Positions 34,231 through 36,576 of a stretch of 64,000 bases of DNA are shown here, piece after piece. Made by a program: the position numbers and the translations under genes. The stretch's first letter is position 1. The number at the start of each line of letters is the position of its first letter. Below the pieces are notes generated by a model. The model worked only from the letters and a program-made list of their open reading frames with translations. It was not told the origin of the DNA and ran no database searches. Source of the DNA: Herpetosiphon geysericola (GTDB lineage Bacteria; Chloroflexota; Chloroflexia; Chloroflexales; Herpetosiphonaceae); contig NZ_LGKP01000035.1 of NCBI RefSeq assembly GCF_001306135.1, forward strand, positions 186,001 to 250,000. Reading direction: 5' to 3'.

Positions 34231-34376
34231 CACGAATGGCTAGAGGCGCTGGGCTTTTGGCTTTTGGATGAACGATTGGCGGGAAAGCCCACCGATCTTC
34301 CGCTAGCCAAGAGCCTGTAGCCTATAATCACTCCTTATGTTCTATGTTCTTTCGTTTAGCCTCCATACTAAAAAAG

Positions 34377-34426
34377 CTCTGCGCCGCTGCGTTAAATGCC
34401 TGTTCGTTTAACGCAGCGGCGCAGAG
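34377..34426. repeat. perfect inverted pair of the 20-base CTCTGCG element
   Basis: CTCTGCGCCGCTGCGTTAAA at 34377-34396 and its exact reverse complement at 34407-34426 are separated by ten bases, giving a perfect 20-base-pair hairpin. Copies 3 and 4 of the element in this window. No T-tract follows. Confidence 0.9.
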
Positions 34427-34522: not shown

Positions 34523-35116
34523 TTAGGCTTCGATTGGCAAGTAGCGCGTAGCTTGGTTGGCGTTGAACGAGGCGCTTTCGCGTTCGTACAAGCCACTGAC
34601 CACCGCCGAATTCATCACGCTATGCACTAGTGGCCGTACCCGATCGTGCTTGATGATCAAGCGTGGGTTGGCGGTGCGTAGCGCCATTGTAATGTCGTAA
34701 GCCGTAAACATTTGGCCTGCGGTGATCCATGTGCCAATTTGCTCGGCAATCAATAAACTTAATTGTTGATCATCGACCGCGTGCCAATCGTCATCGTCGT
34801 TGCCTAGCGCCACAGGTTGGTTTGAGGGCGAGGCGACCCGCCGTTGCCGACTGCGGCGTGGTGTTGGTGGGCTGGTTGGGGTCGCATCGTGTGGAAACAC
34901 CCGATAAGCGCGATGCAACGATACTGCCACAATCAAGACTGGCTGGGGGTTGGCTAATTGGGGCGGATTGCCGCCAACCACATCATAGACATTGCGCACG
35001 CCAATCACCATGCCACGGCGTACCCGACCCATATTTTGGGTTGATGGGCTGCTGCCTGGGCCTTTTGATTGTTTGCTGACAATAATTTCAAATTCAACCC
35101 AATCACCAAGTTGCAT
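34523..35116 (-). CDS. conserved-looking protein of unknown function next to PARP
   Basis: A 197-residue protein with two parts. Residues 1-70 look beta-rich (MQLGDWVEFEIIVSKQ, GRVRRGMVIGVRNVYDVVGG), possibly an SH3-like barrel. Residues 70-115 are basic, Pro/Arg/Ser-rich and probably disordered. Residues 120-197 look like a winged helix (GQMFTAYDITMALRTANPRL, HDRVRPLVHSVMNSAVVSGL). GGAGG lies five bases before the ATG. It follows the PARP stop by 23 bases on the same strand, so the two are probably one operon. No family is recognised. A DNA- or PAR-related role is inferred from context only. Confidence 0.7.
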   Translation of the reverse strand: MQLGDWVEFEIIVSKQSKGPGSSPSTQNMGRVRRGMVIGVRNVYDVVGGNPPQLANPQPVLIVAVSLHRAYRVFPHDATPTSPPTPRRSRQRRVASPSNQPVALGNDDDDWHAVDDQQLSLLIAEQIGTWITAGQMFTAYDITMALRTANPRLIIKHDRVRPLVHSVMNSAVVSGLYERESASFNANQATRYLPIEA

Positions 35117-35139
35117 ACAAGCCTCCAAAAATTAATAAG

Positions 35140-36399
35140 CTAGCGGTCGAAAAGCACCAAATAGCGCAAGCTTTGTTGGGCTGATTGATAGACAATAAAT
35201 TCATCGTATTGCAATTTGCCACCCCAAGCAGTAGTGTGCTGAGCCTTGCCCCAAACTGAATCAAAGCCCTTGGGCGCTGCCCGAAAATCGCTCTGGGCGG
35301 TTGGCGCAACGAAAGGATTGCCCAGCGCCACATCGGCCAAAAAGAGAAACATGGGGCGATTGCGGCGCCGCACCGAGCAATAATTGGTTGATTTGGTGGC
35401 TTTATTGGCAAAATAAATCCCGTGGCCAAACATGCGGCCATTCGATGGCGTGCGTGGGCAAACCAAGCCACTGCGCAAGATGTGGCGCACATTTTGGCCC
35501 GCTGTGCCGTGGAAGAGCAATTGCGTATTGCTACGCCCAAGCTGATTTTGCTCGAAATTACGGCGCTCGGCTCCAATCTTGAGCGTAAAAATACTGTTGA
35601 CCCGCACTTTATAGCCATGAACGCTGGTGCGATCCACGTAATCGCAAATGTGGCGATAGCGATCATCGTTCTGCGCCAGCAGATCAAGCTCAGCGCCCAA
35701 GATTTCGTAGCGTGAAACCTGCGGATTGCGCTGTTGGGCGCTCATGGTGGCGATTGCTGCTTCTAATTGATGCAAACGCGTTTCTTGCTCGTCGAAGTCG
35801 TTGCAAAAATTCTCGATCACGGTTTCGCGCTTGATCTTGCTGGGTAATTTGGTTGGCACAGTGTTATAAAAATGCTGAACTGTGTTGCTAAGCAAGGCCA
35901 AATTAGCTGGTGTTTGGCTTTGTTGCCATGTGCTATGTTGCAATTGGGCGAGGCTGAGCAACTTGCGGCCATGCTCAATTTGCTCAGCAGAAATTGCATC
36001 GAGGCCAACTGCCAAGTACGAAGCAATACCCTCGCCAGCCTCATCGAAAATATAATCAATCACCTTGCGAATTGGCTCGGCCAAGGTCACAACTGGCTCT
36101 GGCGCTGCTGCCACAACGCTTGGGCGGTGTAAGGCCACCTCGTGATAGCCTTTTTTGACCTTTTCGCGAATTTTGCGCTCGATCCATTCGTGGTTCGTCA
36201 CCCTCTCATCCACTTGGGCGACGGAGCCAACTCGGCCATAGGTGGCGCGAAAAAAAACATCATTCGCTGCAAGCTGCCACATTTCAACCAGATAGTATTT
36301 GTTGTTGTTGCCATCTAGGTTGGTCAGCTGGAACTTGCGGCGCTGGGTTGGTTCGCCTTGGGGCGCACCGATTGCAGTACCCACAATTGCACCTCGCAT
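35140..36399 (-). CDS. poly(ADP-ribose) polymerase with WGR-type domain
   Basis: Transfers ADP-ribose from NAD+ to proteins and builds chains. A 419-residue protein with a WGR domain (about 20-85; YGRVGS replaces the W-G-R core), a helical regulatory domain (about 110-220) and the ART catalytic domain (about 230-419). The H-Y-E triad is complete: H297 in LLFHGT, Y329 in GHGIYFANKATKS, E400 in YDEFIVY. E400 is the residue needed for chain elongation. Bacterial PARPs are rare; one from Herpetosiphon has been reported active. The ATG at 36399 is preferred; a GTG at 36444 would add 15 residues, and neither has a strong ribosome site. Confidence 0.94.
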   Translation of the reverse strand: MRGAIVGTAIGAPQGEPTQRRKFQLTNLDGNNNKYYLVEMWQLAANDVFFRATYGRVGSVAQVDERVTNHEWIERKIREKVKKGYHEVALHRPSVVAAAPEPVVTLAEPIRKVIDYIFDEAGEGIASYLAVGLDAISAEQIEHGRKLLSLAQLQHSTWQQSQTPANLALLSNTVQHFYNTVPTKLPSKIKRETVIENFCNDFDEQETRLHQLEAAIATMSAQQRNPQVSRYEILGAELDLLAQNDDRYRHICDYVDRTSVHGYKVRVNSIFTLKIGAERRNFEQNQLGRSNTQLLFHGTAGQNVRHILRSGLVCPRTPSNGRMFGHGIYFANKATKSTNYCSVRRRNRPMFLFLADVALGNPFVAPTAQSDFRAAPKGFDSVWGKAQHTTAWGGKLQYDEFIVYQSAQQSLRYLVLFDR

Positions 36400-36514
36400 A
36401 TACTCAAACCATCGTCTAACGCTCAAACCTGTGCATTGTGCCACTTGGTTTTGCTGGCCTTACTTTAGCAAGCAGCTGTGTCAAACAAAGTCACAGTTTT
36501 ATGCTTGCGGCCAG

Positions 36515-36549
36515 CAATAAAAAACCCTTGCTCAATTCAAGCAAGGGTT
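36515..36549 (-). terminator. terminator of fumC
   Basis: Minus strand: AACCCTTGC (36549-36541) pairs with GCAAGGGTT (36531-36523), with a nine-base loop that can partly close, followed by TTTTTATTG. It lies 27 bases after the fumC stop. Confidence 0.9.
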
Positions 36550-36576
36550 CAACGCTATTTGATTTTGGGCTGCGGT

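Follow-up and report, generated by a model that had tools for sequence, protein, structure and literature searches.

A winged-helix protein encoded beside WGR-PARP genes in Herpetosiphonaceae and large bacterial viruses

Introduction

PARPs have already been described from Herpetosiphon and from a handful of jumbo phages (PMC4245714, PMC5966428, PMC7824862). The enzyme of Herpetosiphon aurantiacus, HaPARP, has been assayed and is reported to be DNA-dependent, to be active with activated DNA and to make long PAR chains (PMC4245714, PMC5966428). WGR-PARPs also occur in large phages, an example being that of the jumbo phage XacN1 (BBA65562.1; PMC7824862). A parallel can be drawn with eukaryotes, where PARP1 works with a dedicated accessory protein, HPF1 (PMC10317172).

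Here we describe a gene pair lying in a 64,000-nucleotide stretch of DNA from the soil bacterium Herpetosiphon geysericola (hereafter the window), in which a WGR-PARP is followed by a two-domain protein. A term search of the two HaPARP papers found no mention of an operon partner (PMC4245714, PMC5966428), and it is absent from the PARP passages of the phage report (PMC7824862).

Results

The WGR-PARP and its operon

The first-pass annotation had described the first gene as a PARP with a full H-Y-E triad and a WGR-like domain, and both assignments hold. H297, Y329 and E400 were found, the catalytic domain exceeds the Pfam cut-off for PF00644 (E=8e-36), and the WGR domain matches PF05406 with E=9e-7 and 29.4 bits for a cut-off of 22. 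The helical regulatory domain PARP_reg gives a weak match under its cut-off (E=0.11), and PARP1 among the PDB sequences matches the Herpetosiphon protein at 9e-20. An alternative GTG start further upstream, at 36444, would extend the protein to 434 residues. The PARP is 91% identical to its counterpart in the H. aurantiacus genome (G002) and displays the same domains and triad as HaPARP. Judged from its sequence, it is the HaPARP orthologue, and this half of the pair is already known. A PARG gene is present in 6/6 Herpetosiphon genomes, and no PARG match was found in G008, a Herpetosiphonaceae genome of another genus that carries the PARP and the partner.

The partner gene starts 23 bp after the PARP gene, as had been annotated, and the proposal of a single operon is supported by an intrinsic terminator and a probable second one that bracket the genes (Table 1). 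Their position, upstream of the PARP and after the partner, delimits a two-gene unit. The hairpin found 3' of the partner is probably the terminator of this operon and may also serve the convergent gene on the plus strand.

Table 1. Features of the PARP-partner locus in window coordinates.
Feature	Coordinates	Strand	Evidence
WGR-PARP gene, 419 aa	35140..36399	(-)	Pfam, PDB match; HaPARP orthologue
WGR domain, PARP residues 23-88	36136..36333	(-)	Pfam PF05406
PARP catalytic (ART) domain, residues 248-417	35149..35658	(-)	Pfam PF00644, triad H297/Y329/E400
Partner gene, 197 aa, two domains	ATG 35116, stop 34523	(-)	ORF, 7/7 adjacency, AlphaFold2
Partner N-domain, residues 1-81, predicted Tudor/SH3-like beta barrel	34874..35116	(-)	AlphaFold2, fold match
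Predicted disordered linker, partner residues 89-110	34787..34852	(-)	pLDDT under 50 (AlphaFold2)
Partner winged-helix (wH) domain, residues 116-194, common to phage PARP-associated proteins	34535..34771	(-)	Profile, AlphaFold2
GGAGG ribosome-binding site, in the gap before the partner ATG	35122..35126	(-)	Direct reading
Intrinsic terminator, between the upstream fumarase gene and the PARP	36522..36550	(-)	Direct reading
20-bp hairpin and CTTTTTT (U-tract) 3' of the partner	about 34367..34425	(-)	Direct reading; fold -43.7 kcal/mol over 120 nt

Whether the two genes stay adjacent elsewhere had been put forward as a check. Adjacency and gene order are kept in all seven Herpetosiphonaceae genomes having either gene, namely six Herpetosiphon and G008; in the latter the flanking genes differ and the pair is retained, which indicates that the pair is the unit. 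Comparison with H. aurantiacus gave a dN/dS of about 0.07 for the partner and 0.08 for the PARP, denoting purifying selection on both. These low values, together with adjacency in 7/7 genomes, argue that the pairing is not due to chance. In a survey of about 300 Chloroflexota genomes, this PARP, the partner and its wH domain were all confined to those seven. Weaker and different PARP-domain matches are present in two other genomes (G100 and G223), with no wH in the 3.3-3.6 kb of sequence near them. A match in a further Chloroflexota genome (G044) was dismissed as chance, as it contains an internal stop and sits in a ribosomal-protein gene region.

Sequence and predicted structure of the partner

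The partner had been described as a beta-rich N-terminus and a winged-helix-like C-terminus joined by a basic linker. The AlphaFold2 model (mean pLDDT 81.5) agrees with this reading of the two ends of the 197-residue protein; the linker is indeed basic at its start (RRSRQRR), but an acidic stretch (NDDDD) follows. Searches of Pfam, NCBIfam, PHROGs and the PDB sequences gave zero matches. The predicted N-terminal strands cover residues 6-81, and the resulting barrel best matches the Tudor domain of PHF19 with a middling score (Z 7.8 over 55 residues, rmsd 2.5), the fold alone being common to the partner and the PHF1/PHF19 Tudor domains (18% identity). The C-terminal domain displays the wH order H1-H2-H3-wing, with helices at residues 116-132, 139-149 and 157-173 and a two-strand wing at 177-194. 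Its structural matches are PadR/LmrR, Hop2 and the cullin WH domain, with Z 6-7; since these families match about equally, we name none of them as its own.

Residues 108-197 contain the motif FTAYDIT..ALR...H..VR..VH, and a set of polar residues is kept in the wH domain (D141, R147, H157, R/K161, H165 and R179) beyond what the fold core needs. H157, R/K161 and H165 follow one another at intervals of four residues along helix 3 and would thus share one face, which makes them a natural candidate surface. Altogether, the predicted folds support a DNA-binding-type architecture, in partial agreement with the annotated suggestion that the protein may bind DNA or poly(ADP-ribose) or target the PARP.

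From sequence comparison, the two halves of the partner appear to have different histories. The N-terminal barrel (residues 1-80) is also encoded alone, as proteins of ~89-106 residues, on two contigs of this genome that resemble prophages (G000 C44, L019 8925-9245; C24, L020 9053-9322), where it belongs to the early region and has genes for a serine recombinase or for replication close by. A third stand-alone barrel is found on the IMG/VR viral contig 3300044849_000009 (L034).

Viral homologues reached through the wH domain

The partner gave no matches by tblastn against phage and plasmid collections, nor did the full-length protein when scanned over viral sequences; a scan of the wH motif alone worked. 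It used a degenerate DNA pattern derived from the Herpetosiphon wH alone and was run over IMG/VR, PARP not being a criterion. Four of its five matches are true homologues, phage proteins of 220-245 residues with the wH at the N-terminus, and the fifth (L042) was discarded as a spurious 98-residue ORF. All four lie on PARP-bearing contigs: three are 14-510 bp downstream of a WGR-PARP with its catalytic motif, and the PARP of the fourth is about 14 kb distant. A profile built solely from the Herpetosiphon wH picks up three of the four as well as the huge phage LR756511 (E=1e-7 to 2e-5), in which the order is PARP, two small genes, DNA ligase, wH protein. A last wH-first scan, with seeds taken from PARP-adjacent genes, added seven contigs, all with a PARP 45-923 bp upstream, cut by the contig end in one case. 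A PARP is thus present in 13/13 viral records reached via the wH (the four motif homologues, LR756511, one more and the seven later contigs), a pattern-limited and partly non-independent count in which the seven later contigs form two near-identical groups. The phage partners that were tried match a single record, again LR756511, in a collection of 50,697 phage records, 17 of which have a PARP match. Partner homologues lying mostly away from PARP genes, the outcome that would have spoken against the annotated pairing, are not what we observe, as every wH homologue that was found belongs to a PARP-bearing genome or contig.

Viral and plasmid loci reached through the PARP

The reverse search covered 67 viral PARP loci, that is 61 viral contigs found with a PARP profile and six phage records. 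In 21 of them a wH protein is encoded downstream of the PARP in the same orientation, at a distance of between -6 and about 3000 bp; in 7 more it lies elsewhere in the record, which gives 28/67. The remaining 39 show no wH protein, many of the contigs being fragments. These viral counts, too, are pattern-limited and partly non-independent. Reversed-sequence decoys scored at best E=0.88 against the wH profile, and three candidates that may be highly divergent wH proteins but score no better than the threshold (L121, L130 and L112) were left out of the counts. When neighbours were clustered by BLAST, blind to the motif, the wH family came out as the commonest PARP neighbour, with 13 loci versus 8 for the next. 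The jumbo phage XacN1 carries a WGR-PARP as here, but it is without the wH protein.

No wH protein was found beside the six megaplasmid PARPs that were checked. WGR-PARP genes were seen in 20 records of 300-1170 kb plasmids typed as non-mobilizable (e.g. L059-L064), from Vibrio, Pseudomonas, Variovorax, Paenibacillus and other hosts.

Genes resembling ATP-dependent DNA ligases recur beside phage PARPs, in a cluster of 7 loci with two Pfam-confirmed members, and their recurrence points to strand-break repair. Some ligases near phage PARPs (L053 5849-6997, L081 5869-7059, L086 and L112) look WGR-like by eye at the N-terminus, where they read KNxGraNxTT...A..EA...KK..KGY; the profile score is weak and Pfam reports no WGR, so that we do not claim this domain for them. 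In one phage PARP clade that lacks the wH protein (L084, L090-L092, L095, L097, L098 and L104), a T4 Rnl1-type RNA ligase and an unnamed family of 212 residues recur nearby.

A constant wH domain with variable attachments

AlphaFold2 also predicts winged helices in the phage partners, and the matches to PadR/LmrR, Hop2 and cullin wH folds concern the Herpetosiphon and phage models together. Across the family the wH stays constant while the attached domain varies: Tudor/SH3-like in Herpetosiphon, and MraZ-like double AbrB, wHTH or other small domains in phages. In most phage partners the C-terminal half is predicted to be the MraZ-like double AbrB; for the partner VIA the match is middling (Z 8.6 over 91 residues), and the best five fold matches of this half are all MraZ. 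The resemblance to MraZ and AbrB regulators is thus confined to a half that is fused to the wH in phages, whereas the Herpetosiphon partner has no such half. A second wHTH precedes the wH in four phage partners (L107, L110, L111 and L115), and L122 has an N-terminus judged SH3-like by eye. The same four proteins carry an acidic stretch and a common C-terminal tail of the YDG-x-x-x-L type, which may be an interaction tip.

The Herpetosiphon PARP is nearest in the tree to those of L110, L115 and L122, with modest support (81) and long branches, and the partners of these three, like that of Herpetosiphon, have the wH placed after another domain. Members of the wH family are scattered among several deep clades of the PARP tree. 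Distances between the PARPs correlate with those between the wH domains (Mantel r=0.44, with 0/5000 permutations as high), a correlation to which shared host-genome descent alone could contribute. This spread and this correlation fit an old pairing that has been repeatedly kept, with losses.

Discussion

The PARP and the wH protein are associated by adjacency, by direction, by near-exclusive co-occurrence and by co-divergence. The wH protein also accompanies the PARP in numerous large viruses of bacteria and therefore seems to be a dedicated PARP partner outside eukaryotes. A wH that stays constant and tracks the PARP, combined with a second domain that varies among DNA- or chromatin-binding types, suggests an adaptor. 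We infer such a mechanism, and we would give an even chance to the proposal that the two genes form a PARP module in which the partner is a DNA-binding adaptor, docking via its wH and targeting PARylation to DNA. The DNA-activated WGR-PARP would sense a strand break, and the wH would dock on the PARP or on the DNA next to it. The interchangeable second domain would then put the complex on DNA or on a DNA-bound protein, choosing the site. PARylation of the partner and its surroundings could mark or protect this site for repair, and in Herpetosiphon the product of the separate PARG gene could reverse the mark and make the cycle reversible. What weighs against this proposal is that 39 of the 67 viral PARP loci and all six megaplasmid PARPs show no wH protein, that the fold matches are middling (best Z 7.8 and 8.6) and that G008 gave no PARG match. 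Since HaPARP is reported to be active with activated DNA and we saw no partner mentioned in those reports (PMC4245714, PMC5966428), the latter is probably not essential for catalysis.

It seems unlikely that the partner is instead a transcription factor in control of the PARP operon, perhaps with PARylation as its switch. Winged helices, MraZ-like/AbrB domains and wHTHs are modules that regulators typically contain, and the phage half finds its closest fold match in MraZ, itself a known regulator. However, a local regulator would hardly be expected to track one enzyme across such widely separated phages with a DNA-binding half that changes type, and a dedicated single-gene repressor is unexpected in lytic jumbo phages. 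Moreover, the N-domain of the Herpetosiphon partner is predicted to resemble Tudor barrels rather than a sequence-specific DNA binder.

Another hypothesis, quite improbable in our opinion, is that the wH meets the PARP active site and that the partner behaves like HPF1, as a factor for catalysis or acceptor specificity, or is the main PARylation acceptor. HPF1 provides the precedent of a PARP accessory factor (PMC10317172), the polar set that exceeds fold-core needs belongs to the constant part of the protein, and the charged disordered linker could bear acceptor residues. On the other hand, Pfam returned no HPF1 match at E up to 10, and in the reported assays HaPARP makes long chains (PMC4245714). 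The two systems also differ in that there is no sequence relation to HPF1-PARP1 and that the partner here combines a wH with a swappable DNA- or chromatin-type domain.

That the pair is a toxin-antitoxin or defence system, in which the PARP would be a toxin that consumes NAD or modifies DNA and the partner its AbrB/MazE-type antitoxin, is very unlikely: the weak MazE/AbrB matches in its favour concern phage partners only and the AbrB half is absent from the Herpetosiphon partner (Pfam, AlphaFold2), while the PARP comes first and the partner second, an order reversed in most toxin-antitoxin operons, all six Herpetosiphon possess the PARP along with PARG, and many phages keep the PARP without the partner.

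The adaptor reading can be extended to a widespread two-component PARP system of phages and bacteria. The wH protein would be a prokaryotic accessory factor comparable to HPF1 or XRCC1 that docks via its constant domain, swappable DNA or chromatin readers would direct PARylation, and with the DNA ligase genes that lie next to it in some phages the whole could form a phage cassette for strand-break signalling and repair. We put this extension forward tentatively, and find it possible though somewhat doubtful.

The pairing had been noted as unfamiliar, and we found no description of it or of the partner in the open-access literature, subscription papers and preprints falling largely outside this scope; the pairing is real, conserved and far wider than one genome. 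For non-eukaryotic PARPs, activity has been reported but targets and helpers have not, and a dedicated partner gives a concrete handle that can be used for co-purification, for deletion or as bait. The motif FTAxDxT...LR...H..VR..VH offers a sequence marker to find prokaryotic PARP systems, and the pairing bears on the origin of DNA-break PARylation.
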